NCBI RefSeq assembly: GCF_001514125.1
Contig: NZ_KQ948553.1
Span: forward strand, 248,001 to 312,000
DNA from: Streptomyces longwoodensis
GTDB taxonomy: Bacteria > Actinomycetota > Actinomycetes > Streptomycetales > Streptomycetaceae
Reading direction: 5' to 3'
Length of the DNA: 64,000 bases
The translations under genes were made by a program, and so were the position numbers. Positions within the stretch are counted from its first letter, which is position 1. The number at the start of each line of letters is the position of its first letter. The notes beneath the pieces were generated by a model. That model saw only the letters and a program-made list of their open reading frames with translations. It was not told the origin of the DNA and did no database searches. Shown here one piece after another: positions 2,989-33,420 of the stretch.

Positions 2989-4614
2989 ATGCGCAAGGGG
3001 GTCAAGGCGGCGATCATCGGCTCGGTGCTCGCCGTCATGGTCGGAGGGGCCGGCTACGGCGGCTGGACCGTGCTCTCCGCGCTGAGCTCGGACAGCGGCA
3101 CGGCCGCCGGCGGGCCCGCGCCGGTGCGGACCGGACCACCGAGCGGCGACGAGGTGAAGGACACCACGCGCGCGTTCTTCGCCGCCTGGAGCAAGGGCGA
3201 CGCGGCCGGGGCGGCGGCGCTCACCAACAACGCCGAACGCGCCCGGTCGCTGTTCACCGCCTACACCACGGAGGCCCACGTCACGGGCGTCCGCATCACC
3301 CCCGGCACGGCCACCGGGGCCACCGTCCCGTACGCCGTCAGGGCAACGGTGTCCTTCGGCGGGAAGTCCGCGCCGCTGACCTACCGGAGCCGGCTGACCG
3401 TGGTCCGGGGCGTCACCACCGGCAAGGCGCTCGTCGACTGGCAGCCCTCGGTCGTCCACCCGGCGCTGAGGAGCATGGACGACACCCTGGTGACCGGCGC
3501 GTCGGCGGCGGCACCGATCGAGGCGGTGGACCGCCACGGCAAGCTCCTGACGAAGGAGCAGTACCCCTCCCTGGGCCCGGTCCTGGACCAGCTGCGCGAC
3601 ACGTACGGCGACCGGGCGGGCGGTTCGCCCGGCGTCGAGCTGGCGGTGCGGCACGCGGACGCGAGCGCCGCCGACACCCCGGTGCTGACCCTCGCCGAGG
3701 GGCGGGCCGGGAAGCTGCGGACCACGCTGGACGCCGGGCTGCAGGCGGCGGCCGAGCGGGCGGTGCAGTCGTACGCCGAGTCGTCCGTGGTCGCCGTCCA
3801 GCCCAGCAGCGGCGACGTGCTGGCGGTCGCCAACCACCGCACCGACGGCTTCAACGCCGCGTTCCTGGGCCGGGTCGCCCCGGGGTCCACCCTGAAGATC
3901 GTCAGCGCGGCCACCCTCATCGACAACGGCATCACCACCGCCGACGGCCCCGCGCCCTGCCCCGAAGAGGCCGTCTGGCAGAGCCAGACCTTCCACAACC
4001 TCAAGGACCTGAAGCCCGACGAGGGCGCCACCCTCTCCGACAGCTTCGCCCGCTCCTGCAACACGGCGTTCGTGAAGTTCGCCGACGAGGTGCGGGTCGA
4101 CTCCCTCACGAACGAGGCCGCCGACCGCTTCGGGATCGGCCTGGACTGGAAGACCGGCATCCCGTCCTTCGACGGCTCGGTCCCCGCCTCCGGCGGCCCC
4201 GACACGGCGGCCGCCCTGATCGGGCAGGGCCAGGTGCAGCTGAACCCGCTGAACCTGGCCTCGATCACGGCGACCGCGATGACGGGCAGCTTCCGCCAGC
4301 CGGTCATCGTGCCGCGCGGCCTCGACGACCGCGCCCTCGCCCGCGCCCGGGGGCTGTCGTCCCGGACCGTGCAGCAGCTGCGCGCCATGATGCACCGCAC
4401 CGCGACCAGCGGAACCGCCGCCGAGGTGATGTCCGCGGTGCGGGGTGACGTCGGCGCGAAGACCGGCTCCGCGGAGGTCGACGGGCAGGCCCGCTCCGAC
4501 AGCTGGTTCACCGGCTACCGGAACGACGTCGCGGCCGCGGCCATGGCCCAGGGCGCGGGCCACGGCGTCGACGCGGCCGGCCCCATCGTCGCGTCGGTCC
4601 TGCGCGCCGGCTGA
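2989..4614 (+). CDS. Penicillin-binding protein, transpeptidase (first tandem copy)
   Basis: Class B-type D,D-transpeptidase, 541 aa. After a short cytoplasmic MRKGVK tail and one transmembrane anchor (about residues 7-30) comes an NTF2-like/MecA-N domain (about 50-160), a linker, and the transpeptidase domain. The three catalytic motifs are present: STLK with nucleophile Ser300, SCN at Ser356, and KTGSAE at Lys491. It would cross-link septal or hyphal peptidoglycan outside the membrane. The ATG at 2989 is preceded by GGGGAAGGGG and gives a normal membrane anchor. The next gene is a clear paralogue with the same architecture, so this is a tandem duplication. From memory the S. coelicolor pair is SCO3156/SCO3157. 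Confidence 0.93.
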   Translation: MRKGVKAAIIGSVLAVMVGGAGYGGWTVLSALSSDSGTAAGGPAPVRTGPPSGDEVKDTTRAFFAAWSKGDAAGAAALTNNAERARSLFTAYTTEAHVTGVRITPGTATGATVPYAVRATVSFGGKSAPLTYRSRLTVVRGVTTGKALVDWQPSVVHPALRSMDDTLVTGASAAAPIEAVDRHGKLLTKEQYPSLGPVLDQLRDTYGDRAGGSPGVELAVRHADASAADTPVLTLAEGRAGKLRTTLDAGLQAAAERAVQSYAESSVVAVQPSSGDVLAVANHRTDGFNAAFLGRVAPGSTLKIVSAATLIDNGITTADGPAPCPEEAVWQSQTFHNLKDLKPDEGATLSDSFARSCNTAFVKFADEVRVDSLTNEAADRFGIGLDWKTGIPSFDGSVPASGGPDTAAALIGQGQVQLNPLNLASITATAMTGSFRQPVIVPRGLDDRALARARGLSSRTVQQLRAMMHRTATSGTAAEVMSAVRGDVGAKTGSAEVDGQARSDSWFTGYRNDVAAAAMAQGAGHGVDAAGPIVASVLRAG

Positions 4615-6465: not shown

Positions 6466-6816
6466 TCAGCCCGCGACGGGCTCGGCGGTGTGGGTGCGGC
6501 GCAGGAAGCGGGTCAGCACCTTGGTCTCGAACTGCACGACCGAGACGCCCCGGGCCGAGTGGAACTCGACGATCGCCTGCACCCGGCCGCACGGCCACAC
6601 CCGCACCTGTCCGCTGCTGACCGGGGCGCTCAGGCCCTCTTCGAGCAGGGTGCGGGACAGCGTCCACTCGTGCGGGCCGGGCAGGCCGACGCGCACCGAG
6701 CGGGGGTCGGCGTCCGGGTCGTAGCGCAGGACGACCGGGACCGCTCCGAGGTCCACCCCGAGCCGGTCGGCGTCCGTGAGGATGTGGGCTCGTGCGTACT
6801 GCTCGACTACGGACAT
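6466..6816 (-). CDS. ssgE: SsgA-like sporulation/cell-division regulator, SsgE type
   Basis: SsgA-like proteins (SALPs) are small actinomycete proteins that localise or time peptidoglycan remodelling during sporulation-specific division. The 116-residue product has the SALP pattern: VPVVLRYDPDADPRSV, then VGLPGPHEWTLSRTLLEEGL, VRVWPCG and VEFHSARGV near residues 40-100. The symbol ssgE rests on matching order with S. coelicolor SCO3158 (next to two PBPs and upstream of cbiMQO). SsgE and SsgF have been linked to spore-wall autolysis and spore separation, and adjacency to two transpeptidases fits. It converges on the second PBP gene with a 9-bp gap. Confidence 0.88.
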   Translation of the reverse strand: MSVVEQYARAHILTDADRLGVDLGAVPVVLRYDPDADPRSVRVGLPGPHEWTLSRTLLEEGLSAPVSSGQVRVWPCGRVQAIVEFHSARGVSVVQFETKVLTRFLRRTHTAEPVAG

Positions 6817-6921: not shown

Positions 6922-6952
6922 TTGCAAGAGGTTCGCAACAGGGCTCTATCAT
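6922..6952 (+). promoter_or_regulatory. Nur-like box overlapping the cbiM promoter
   Basis: TTGCAA (6922-6927), a 5-base spacer, and TCGCAA (6933-6938) match the Streptomyces Nur box tTGCaa-N5-ttGCAA at 11 of 12 positions. TATCAT at 6947-6952 is the likely -10. The first half site falls where the -35 should lie, so Ni-Nur binding would block RNA polymerase. The predicted transcription start coincides with the GTG of cbiM. Confidence 0.7.
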
Positions 6953-6958
6953 CGAACG

Positions 6959-8038
6959 GTGCACGTACCCGACGGATTCATCAACGCCCCGACGTCCGCC
7001 GTGACCGCCGTGGTCGCCGCCGGCGCCATCGCCGTGAGCCTGCGCGGCGCGCGCCGCGAACTCGACGAGCGGACCGCCCCGTTGGCCGGTCTGGTCGCGG
7101 CCTTCATCTTCGCCGTGCAGATGCTGAACTTCCCCGTCGCCGCGGGGACCAGCGGCCACCTGCTCGGCGGCGCGCTCGCCGCGATCCTCGTGGGCCCCTG
7201 TACGGGCGTGCTGTGCGTCTCCGTCGTCCTGCTGATGCAGGGCATCCTCTTCGCCGACGGCGGGCTGACCGCGCTCGGCGTGAACATCACCGACATGGCG
7301 ATCGTGACCACGGTCGTCTCCTACGCCCTCTTCCGCGCGCTGGTGAAGGTCCTGCCGCGCAGCCGCCGTTCGGTCACCGTGGCGTCGTTCGTGGCCGCGC
7401 TGGTCTCCGTGCCGGCCGCGGCGGTCGCGTTCACCGTGATCTACGCGATCGGCGGCACCACCGACGTCTCGATCGGCAAGGTCGCCACCGCGATGATCGG
7501 CGTGCACGTGCTGATCGGGATCGGTGAGGCCGTGATCACCGCGCTGACCGTGGGCGCCGTGATCGCCGTACGCCCCGACCTGGTGCACGGGGCGCGTGGG
7601 CTGGAGCAGCGGCTGAAGCTGCGGGTGAACGGCGAGCTCGTCGACGCGCCGTCGGCCCCGGCCGCCGCGGAGCCCGCCGCGGAGCCCGTCGCGGTGCGCA
7701 CCTCGCGGCGCGCGCTGTGGGTGTCCGGCCTGGTCACCTCGCTCGTGCTGGCCGGGTTCGTCAGCTACTACGCCTCCTCCTCCCCGGACGGCCTGGAGAA
7801 GGTCGCCGCCGACCACGGCATCGACCGCAAGGCCGAGCAGCACACCAACGCCGATTCCCCGCTCGCCGACTACGGCGTCAAGGACGTCGACGACGCCCGC
7901 CTGTCCGGCGGGCTGGCGGGCGTGATCGGCGTCGGGGTGACCGTCGTGGCCGGCAGCGCCGTCTTCTGGACCCTGCGCCGCCGCCGCGCGGCCGACGACG
8001 TGTCGCCCGCCTCGACCACCACCGTGGAGAACGTCTGA
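6959..8038 (+). CDS. cbiM: Energy-coupling-factor nickel/cobalt transporter substrate component, CbiM/NikM with C-terminal PDGLE domain
   Basis: S component of a metal ECF transporter, 359 aa. The N-terminus MHVPDGF matches the conserved NikM/CbiM start whose His2 and backbone coordinate Ni2+ or Co2+; this fixes GTG 6959 as the start, and no Shine-Dalgarno precedes it. Six or seven hydrophobic segments follow (for example GHLLGGALAAILVGPCTGVL). After residue 245 a PDGLE/CbiN-like extension appears, with one TM helix, SSPDGLEKVAAD and a second terminal helix, so the accessory CbiN function is fused here rather than separate. cbiQ starts 2 bp after the stop. The Nur box upstream favours nickel as substrate. 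Confidence 0.92.
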   Translation: MHVPDGFINAPTSAVTAVVAAGAIAVSLRGARRELDERTAPLAGLVAAFIFAVQMLNFPVAAGTSGHLLGGALAAILVGPCTGVLCVSVVLLMQGILFADGGLTALGVNITDMAIVTTVVSYALFRALVKVLPRSRRSVTVASFVAALVSVPAAAVAFTVIYAIGGTTDVSIGKVATAMIGVHVLIGIGEAVITALTVGAVIAVRPDLVHGARGLEQRLKLRVNGELVDAPSAPAAAEPAAEPVAVRTSRRALWVSGLVTSLVLAGFVSYYASSSPDGLEKVAADHGIDRKAEQHTNADSPLADYGVKDVDDARLSGGLAGVIGVGVTVVAGSAVFWTLRRRRAADDVSPASTTTVENV

Positions 8039-8039
8039 C

Positions 8040-8801
8040 ATGGGCGCCGGGCACGCGCACCGGCTGTACCGGCACGGGCACTCGCCCGTGCACGCCCTGC
8101 CGCCGCACACCAAGCTCGCCGCCGCGTTCGCCTTCGTGGTGGTCGTGGTGTCGACGCCTCGCGAGGCGATGTGGGCGTTCGCCCTGTACGCCGTGCTGCT
8201 CGCGCTCGTCGCCCGCCACGCGCGCGTGCCCGCCGGGTTCCTGCTGCGGCGGCTGCTGATCGAGGTGCCGTTCGTCGCGTTCGCCGTGCTCATGCCGTTC
8301 GTGGCGGAGGGCGAGCGGGTCGACGTCCTCGGGCTGTCGCTGAGCGTCAACGGCCTGTGGGGCGCCTGGAACGTGCTGGCCAAGGGCACCCTCGGCGTCG
8401 CCGCGTCGGTGCTGCTGGCGGCCACCACCGAACTGCGCGAACTGCTGCTCGGGCTGCAGCGGCTGAAGCTCCCGCCGCTGCTCGTGCAGATCGCCTCCTT
8501 CATGATCCGCTACGGCGACGTGATCACCGACGAGATGCGGCGCATGCGGATCGCCCGCGAGTCCCGCGGCTTCGAGGCCCGGGGCGTACGCCACTGGGGC
8601 GTGCTCGCCAAGTCGGCGGGCGCCCTGTTCATCCGCTCCTACGAACGCGGCGAGCGCGTGCACCTGGCCATGGTCAGCCGCGGCTACGCCGGATCCATGC
8701 CGGTGATCGACGAGGTGACCGCGTCCCGGGCGCAGTGGTCGCACGCCCTCGCCCTGCCGTGCGCCGCCCTCGTCGTGTGTCTGCTGGGATGGACCCTGTG
8801 A
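8040..8801 (+). CDS. cbiQ: ECF transporter T component CbiQ
   Basis: Transmembrane coupling component of the ECF importer, 253 aa. Several hydrophobic helices are followed by the cytoplasmic coupling helices with the family's short motifs: ARESRGFEARG (around residue 177) and ERGERVHLAMVSRGY (around 205). Both carry the Ala-Arg-Gly-type signature that contacts the ATPases. It starts 2 bp after cbiM and overlaps cbiO, so cbiM-cbiQ-cbiO form one operon encoding a complete metal importer with a single ATPase type. Confidence 0.92.
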   Translation: MGAGHAHRLYRHGHSPVHALPPHTKLAAAFAFVVVVVSTPREAMWAFALYAVLLALVARHARVPAGFLLRRLLIEVPFVAFAVLMPFVAEGERVDVLGLSLSVNGLWGAWNVLAKGTLGVAASVLLAATTELRELLLGLQRLKLPPLLVQIASFMIRYGDVITDEMRRMRIARESRGFEARGVRHWGVLAKSAGALFIRSYERGERVHLAMVSRGYAGSMPVIDEVTASRAQWSHALALPCAALVVCLLGWTL

Positions 8802-9547
8802 CTGCTTCCCTGGAGGTCTCCGGCCTCGCCTTCGCCTACCCCGACGGCCACCAGGCCCTGTTCGGCGTGGACTTCTCGATCGCGCGCGGCGAGCGCGTCG
8901 CGCTGCTCGGCCCGAACGGCGCGGGCAAGACGACCCTCGTGCTGCACCTCAACGGCATCCTGTCCGGCGGCACCGGCTCGGTGACCGTCGCCGGACTGCC
9001 CGTCGGCAAGCAGCACATGGCCGAGATCCGCCGCAAGGTCGGCATCGTCTTCCAGGACCCCGACGACCAGCTCTTCATGCCGACGGTGCGCGAGGACGTC
9101 GCGTTCGGGCCCGCGGCCGCCGGGATCAAGGGCGCGGCGCTGGAGGAGCGGGTCGACCGGGCGCTCGCCCAGGTGGGCATGGCGGAGTTCAAGGAGCGTC
9201 CGCCGCACCACCTGTCGTTCGGCCAGCGGCGCCGGGTCGCCGTCGCGACAGTGCTGGCGATGGAGCCTGAGATCCTGGTCCTGGACGAGCCGTCGTCCAA
9301 CCTCGACCCGGCCTCCCGGCGCGAACTCGCCGACATCCTGCGCGCTTTGGACGTGACCGTGCTGATGGTCACCCACGACCTGCCCTACGCGCTCGAACTA
9401 TGCCCGCGCGCGCTGGTCCTGAGCGACGGCGTGATCGCGGCCGACGGCCCGACCGCCGAACTCCTCGGCGACGACGCCCTGATGCGAGCCCACCGCCTGG
9501 AGCTGCCGTTCGGCTTCGACCCGCGGTCCGTGGCCACGGGCGCGTGA
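8789..9547 (+). CDS. cbiO: ECF transporter ATPase CbiO
   Basis: ATP-binding subunit powering CbiMQ, 252 aa. Seen directly: Walker A GPNGAGKTT, Q-loop VFQDPDDQLF typical of CbiO/EcfA, the signature region HLSFGQRRRVAVA, Walker B ILVLDEPSSNLDP and switch His in VTHD. The Gln-rich 'QDPDDQ' Q-loop distinguishes ECF ATPases from ordinary importers. ATG 8789 overlaps cbiQ by 13 bp. GTG 8798 (4-bp GTGA overlap, with GGGATGGA just upstream) is an equally good start giving three fewer residues. Confidence 0.92.
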   Translation: MDPVTASLEVSGLAFAYPDGHQALFGVDFSIARGERVALLGPNGAGKTTLVLHLNGILSGGTGSVTVAGLPVGKQHMAEIRRKVGIVFQDPDDQLFMPTVREDVAFGPAAAGIKGAALEERVDRALAQVGMAEFKERPPHHLSFGQRRRVAVATVLAMEPEILVLDEPSSNLDPASRRELADILRALDVTVLMVTHDLPYALELCPRALVLSDGVIAADGPTAELLGDDALMRAHRLELPFGFDPRSVATGA

Positions 9548-31659: not shown

Positions 31660-31733
31660 TGGACCTGTGGGGATTTGAACCCCAGACCCCCTCGATGCGA
31701 ACGAGGTGCGCTACCAGACTGCGCCACAGGCCC
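31660..31733 (-). tRNA. tRNA-Ala(CGC)
   Basis: Complete 74-nt cloverleaf on the minus strand. Acceptor GGGCCTG pairs with CAGGTCC and includes the G3-U70 wobble that identifies alanine tRNAs; the D-arm is GCGCAGTCTGGTAGCGC; anticodon stem CCTCG/CGAGG encloses loop TTCGCAT, anticodon CGC, reading GCG; the T-arm is TGGGG-TTCAAAT-CCCCA; the discriminator is A73. The 3' CCA is not encoded. Confidence 0.96.
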
Positions 31734-33280: not shown

Positions 33281-33420
33281 GTCGCACGATCTGGCTGATA
33301 TTTCGAACTTTTTTTGTGACCGATGCGATCAGTGGCTCACCCGGGCCGGGAATTCATTGCTCCGAGAACGTCGCCCATCGATCAATTTCGAACATATTTT
33401 CAATTTCCGGGGTTGCCGGC
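33281..33420. promoter_or_regulatory. AT-rich island upstream of sepX
   Basis: About 51 % GC over 140 bp against about 73 % around it. It holds two direct copies of ATTTCGAAC (33300-33308 and 33385-33393, 85 bp apart), a run of eight T, and ATATTTTCAATTT. It spans the 3' end of the acetyltransferase gene and most of the sepX upstream region. Candidate binding site for an AT-preferring protein such as Lsr2, or a regulated sepX promoter region. Confidence 0.5.

Follow-up and report, generated by a model that had tools for sequence, protein, structure and literature searches.

A Nur box within a leaderless-looking promoter points to nickel repression of the CbiMQO importer of Streptomyces longwoodensis

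The analysed window (64,000 nt of a Streptomyces longwoodensis contig) contains three forward-strand genes encoding adjoining S, T and A components, the arrangement that serves as the criterion for a group I ECF nickel/cobalt importer. The S component is specified by cbiM (6959-8038), whose 359-aa product combines a CbiM domain (PF01891, 200 bits) with a C-terminal PDGLE domain (PF13190, 77 bits). It is followed by cbiQ (8040-8801; T component, 253 aa; TIGR02454, 178 bits, over the cut-off; PF02361) and by the ATPase gene cbiO (8789-9547; TIGR01166, 213 bits, over the cut-off), which starts at either ATG 8789 or GTG 8798. No CbiN subunit was detected over the cut-off (NCBIfam models named for CbiN gave at most 35.7 bits vs the required 191), and CbiM itself scores below the cut-offs of the NCBIfam models that name its relatives cobalt transporters. 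The flanking genes encode penicillin-binding, SsgA-like, beta-lactamase-type and ArsP_1 proteins and are not cobalamin genes; the SsgA-like gene (6466-6816, minus strand; PF04686, 71 bits) is a divergent neighbour outside the operon, 142 nt from the cbiM start. A riboswitch search of the window and the genome found no B12 riboswitch at cbiM. The S. coelicolor counterparts of cbiMQO are presumably SCO3159-SCO3161, and a literature search on these locus names retrieved no paper. Elsewhere the window carries a tRNA (31660-31733, minus strand) and the Streptomyces sRNA Scr3202 (RF02833; 60460-60550, minus strand, 72 bits).

The closest solved chain to CbiM is 4m58 (E 2.8e-23; about 200 residues align, the PDGLE part being excluded), which we take to be the nickel protein NikM2. 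CbiM starts with MHVPDG and contains His2 and His67, the second of which we assume to be a metal ligand. It thereby resembles the NikMNQO/NikM2-type ECF nickel importers (4m58, 4m5b) in sequence, in the M1-H2 start and in the histidine at position 67; this likeness is one of sequence, and the PDB molecule names of 4m58 and 4m5b, unlike the NikM2 designation, say CbiM. According to an excerpt of PMC6828968, residues 1 and 2 of NikM/CbiM are involved in binding the substrate; this would fix the position of the cbiM start codon.

Upstream of cbiM lies an inverted repeat, TTGCAA-GAGGT-TCGCAA (6922-6938, plus strand; half-sites 6922-6927 and 6933-6938), that fits the Nur box consensus tTGCaa-N5-ttGCAA, printed in the accessible portion of PMC3919588, at 11 of 12 specified bases. 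The whole region reads CGCTC TTGCAA GAGGT TCGCAA CAGGGCTC TATCAT CGAACG GTG. With at most one mismatch the consensus occurs at only two places in the 8.36-Mb genome, the cbiM box and a box before sodF (Fe-SOD by Pfam). When two mismatches are allowed there are 12 places vs 20 for a reversed control pattern, so that two-mismatch matches by themselves carry no weight, and none of the remaining 10 was accepted as a Nur target for its match to the consensus. The cbiM box is the sole site in the window with fewer than three mismatches, while the number of sites with up to three (2 found vs 1.95 expected) is at chance level. A symmetric scoring matrix, trained on the sodF boxes of other Streptomyces (24 distinct sequences, the genome under study excluded), placed position 6922 at the top of the window with a score of 21.75, and a score of 14 was reached by none of the 63,983 other window positions. 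The second-best match, TTCGAACATATTTTCAA at 33387-33403, scored 12.7. An earlier note on this DNA had claimed a Nur-like box with an 11/12 match in the -35 region; its sequence, its rarity in the genome, the sodF-derived matrix and the conservation described below confirm this claim, and the Nur-box-like site before cbiM is real.

The CbiM S component is present in 178 of 199 Streptomyces, and the cbiM upstream regions of 129 of these were read, the unread ones having been left out regardless of sequence (L015 was excluded because it comes from the same genome as L152). Every one of the 129 contains TTGC-N9-GCA, so that the conservation of the motif upstream of cbiM orthologues, which the earlier note had suggested as a check, was found throughout. 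The matrix score is at least 14 in 126/129 (lowest value, 10.5), and two or fewer consensus mismatches were observed in 116/129 upstream regions, compared with 0/129 when the pattern was reversed and 11 of 2,580 when the upstream sequences were shuffled. Across the box columns the information averages 1.40 and 1.35 bits for the two kinds of start described below, vs 0.19 and 0.36 bits in the flank, and the CGCTC directly 5' of TTGC is also kept at cbiM. In a set of named genomes, which partly overlaps the sample of 199 Streptomyces, 79 of 80 loci score at least 14.

The left half of the box (6922-6927, plus strand) is the probable -35 element, as indicated by the sequence, by the conservation of CGCTC/TTGC and by the CTTGCG of genus g32 (see below), and a -10-like hexamer, TATCAT (6947-6952, plus strand), stands at a conserved position after the box. 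The spacer between TTGCAA and TATCAT is 19 nt long, which is why a generic sigma-70 scan (spacer 16-18) found no promoter here; a generic terminator scan was also negative. GTG (6959-6961, plus strand), the first start codon of the cbiM frame, begins six bases past TATCAT. Among the 129 Streptomyces, 76 have a GTG start and 53 an ATG start with a leader, and both classes share the box and the -10-like hexamer, found 7-8 nt past the box in 72/76 and 49/53 upstream regions, respectively. In the GTG class (n=76) the box begins 36-38 nt ahead of the start codon and the -10 lies 6 nt (62/76) or 7 nt (10/76) before it; in the ATG class (n=53), 35-108 nt separate the -10 from ATG. A Shine-Dalgarno (SD)-like 4-mer at -16 to -5 was found in 0/76 GTG-type vs 50/53 ATG-type upstream regions, and the median anti-SD duplex energy is 0.3 vs -8.5 kcal/mol. 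The spacing from -10 to GTG and the missing SD support the earlier proposal of a leaderless promoter: transcription starting at the GTG fits both sequence and conservation, its exact position being the predicted part. In S. coelicolor, according to the part of PMC4895711 available to us, 21.0% of primary start sites are leaderless (5' UTR <9 nt) and AUG is favoured among them (76.4%), so a leaderless GUG start would be of the less common sort.

Four FUR proteins are encoded in the genome. One of them (L050), encoded by another part of this contig, aligns over residues 2-145 to 3EYY, the structure of S. coelicolor Nur, with an E value of 3.5e-90, and Nur was present in 24/24 same-genus genomes of the class draw. 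Nur represses sodF and nikABCDE and responds to nickel, as stated in an excerpt of PMC7055735, and in the absence of nickel its affinity drops for the box overlapping the sodF promoter (PMC3919588, partial text). In 30 Streptomyces upstream regions of sodF the box has 0, 1, 2 or 3 mismatches in 12, 14, 3 and 1 cases. A NikA-like locus (L428) carries a box at 3066-3082 (matrix score 19.0, three consensus mismatches), 32 nt before an in-frame ATG as read by eye. Its best match (176 bits vs a cut-off of 393) does not establish it as NikA, but the gene may possibly belong to a second Nur-controlled nickel importer. No Nur box was found at the sodN, NicO and CbtA loci (best matrix score, 0.7). B12 riboswitches precede NicO (83.4 bits), CobD (45.7) and ribonucleotide reductase (40.8), all over the cut-off of 31.5, and CbtA is located behind a riboswitch-like match of 29.2 bits, below that cut-off. 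Among the two-mismatch places of the genome is a high-scoring box (21.8; L012 1501-1517, G000:C18:81374-81390), situated some 200 nt ahead of a FecCD permease operon. It was rejected as a member of the Nur regulon, since 26 of 28 other Streptomyces FecCD upstream regions (from 25 genomes) score at most 7.7, the remaining two giving 14.8 and 10.8. Some other Streptomyces FecCD loci show, by eye, a B12-riboswitch-like sequence.

A wider comparison covered 246 actinomycete genomes, of which 102 contain CbiM and 147 contain Nur, the presence of Nur being defined as a match to the S. longwoodensis protein at E <=1e-30 and its absence as no match at that E value. Upstream regions were read for 68 of the 80 CbiM genomes outside Streptomyces (absent from this table are G204, G220, G236, G280, G308, G316, G333, G355, G357, G363, G405 and G423). 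A box score of at least 12 was obtained in 36/46 genomes with Nur vs 0/22 without, and a score of at least 10 in 43/46 vs 1/22, the single Nur-less case scoring 11.5; Nur-bearing genomes lacking a box therefore number 10/46 and 3/46 at the two thresholds. The 22 Nur-less genomes form an unbalanced set, 11 being from one genus and 8 having another N-terminal CbiM motif. Kinship was handled by genus pooling only, a genus being counted as box-positive if at least half of its genomes are, and on this basis the box occurs in 18/26 genera with Nur vs 0/7 without (p 0.0015), or in 18/24 vs 0/4 (p 0.010) when only MHxPDG CbiM proteins are considered. Families f15, f22 and f28 each hold both Nur-bearing and Nur-less kinds, and each of nine Nur-less genomes checked has 1 to 5 other FUR-family proteins. 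In these other genera the distance from the box to the start codon varies. In G205 and G357 a nur-type FUR gene is divergent to cbiM (L296, 28-435 and 569 onward; L297, around 1547-1749), with boxes scoring 17.0 and 16.8 between the genes. The G205 protein is 66% identical to the S. longwoodensis Nur and that of G357, a genome inspected separately from the 68 because its nur-type gene adjoins cbiM, has 3EYY as its closest solved chain.

Because the box is conserved together with Nur and is not found without it, the importer is most likely nickel-repressed and most likely serves for nickel. We infer, with high confidence, that nickel-loaded Nur binds this site and represses the nickel importer CbiM-PDGLE/CbiQ/CbiO via a leaderless promoter, with transcription starting at the GTG. 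When nickel is ample, a nickel-bound Nur dimer would occupy the repeat (6922-6938), whose left half forms the -35 region of cbiMQO, and would keep RNA polymerase off. When nickel is scarce, Nur would be released and transcription would begin at or beside the G of GTG, giving a leaderless cbiMQO mRNA whose products would assemble into the ECF importer and take in nickel, acting beside the product of the NikA-like binding-protein gene that also bears a box. The Nur-box reading of the earlier note is supported by the matrix, the conservation, the Nur homologue, the co-occurrence of box and Nur, the divergent nur/cbiM pairs, and the lack of a box at NicO, CbtA and sodN. Its substrate clue, nickel and not cobalt, is probably right as well.

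Other explanations of these data have also to be weighed. It is conceivable that Nur does regulate cbiMQO but that the importer carries cobalt, or both ions. This would agree with the NCBIfam names of CbiM relatives, and with a survey whose accessible portion (PMC2667541) lists, for the Cbi/Nik-type systems of 40 actinobacteria, 0 nickel-specific, 2 cobalt-specific and 13 unassigned cases. We nevertheless consider it improbable, since the cobalt-type importers NicO and CbtA have B12 riboswitches (that of CbtA below the cut-off) and no Nur box, since CbiM comes with a PDGLE domain and no CbiN, and since Nur responds to nickel (PMC7055735, as excerpted). Nickel over cobalt as the physiological role is well supported, even if importers of this kind may carry both ions.

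Less probable still, in our estimation, is that the conserved block is merely a promoter, its likeness to a Nur box being coincidental or due to another regulator. The overlap of the left half with the -35 could by itself produce conservation, and CTTGCG is retained in the Nur-less g32 genomes. Yet the right half, whose GCA is invariant in 129/129 Streptomyces, sits in the promoter spacer, the matrix that recognises the cbiM box was built on an unrelated gene (sodF), the box tracks the presence of Nur across genomes, and in other genera it is placed at varied distances from the start. A leader on the transcript, or a start upstream of the GTG, is also unlikely, if slightly less so than cobalt transport. 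The same promoter does occur in a leadered ATG form in 53/129 Streptomyces, and the S. longwoodensis cbiM upstream region could pair weakly with the anti-SD (-3.1 kcal/mol); against this stand the distance of 6-7 nt between -10 and GTG in 72/76 GTG-type genomes, the lack of SD-like 4-mers in all 76 and the difference in duplex energy between the classes.

The preferred reading, repression by Nur of a nickel importer, resembles the S. coelicolor Nur regulon (sodF, nikABCDE and, indirectly, sodN; as described in partial texts) in its Fur-family regulator, its 6-5-6 inverted repeat and its promoter-overlapping operator. It differs in that the target is an ECF-type importer and the GTG-type genes look leaderless; moreover, the cbiM box overlaps the -35 side, whereas the sodF box directly follows a conserved stretch containing TAG, which we take, by eye, to be the -10. 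With the CbiMNQO cobalt importers controlled by B12 riboswitches the system shares CbiM, CbiQ and CbiO, but it has no CbiN over the cut-off, no riboswitch and no cobalamin neighbours. Nickel repression of a nickel importer, as proposed here, is likewise characteristic of NikR-controlled importers, although cbiMQO has the 6-5-6 repeat of a Fur-family regulator. No link of Nur with cbiMQO was found among the literature matches listed. The regulator, the box and the importer class are all known, and the pairing of Nur with cbiMQO represents, as far as the listed literature shows, a new regulon member. A conserved nickel-repressor operator would allow a direct assignment of substrate to an importer, against the usual cobalt annotation, and this bears on the 13 of 40 actinobacteria whose Cbi/Nik-type importers were left without a substrate in the 2009 survey (PMC2667541, partial text). 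The locus also offers a compact case of an operator inside a leaderless-looking promoter, for which the leadered relatives are natural controls.

In one Nur-less genus, g32, the cbiM operator seems to have been exchanged. All 11 CbiM-bearing g32 genomes drawn carry CTTGCG, 5 nt and TGCGACNNNGTCGCATCAT upstream of cbiM (L178, L180, L213, L214, L217, L218, L220-L223 and L233), with TTGCGN and CATCAT a constant 17 nt apart in 11/11. The palindrome TGCGACNNNGTCGCATCAT occupies the place of the Nur box, 33-98 nt separate the motif from the cbiM start, and it was found in 0/129 Streptomyces cbiM upstream regions. It seems that g32 retains this promoter but places it under a different, putative regulator; none was identified. 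With slightly less than even confidence, we suggest that control by Nur is the ancestral state of the CbiM-PDGLE importer in actinomycetes and that lineages without Nur, having lost it, retained the promoter but swapped the operator, as in the CTTGCG, TGCGACNNNGTCGCA, CATCAT of g32; this would imply a second metal regulator whose palindrome is present also at FecCD-type permease genes. In four g32 genomes there are 3-4 copies of the palindrome per genome vs 0-1 of a control, some of the other copies falling inside predicted reading frames, and in 3/4 of these genomes a copy is found where a FecCD-type permease gene begins (L418, L419 and L425, 1501-1515). A further copy (L414) is located near a HupE_UreJ_2 protein in one genome.
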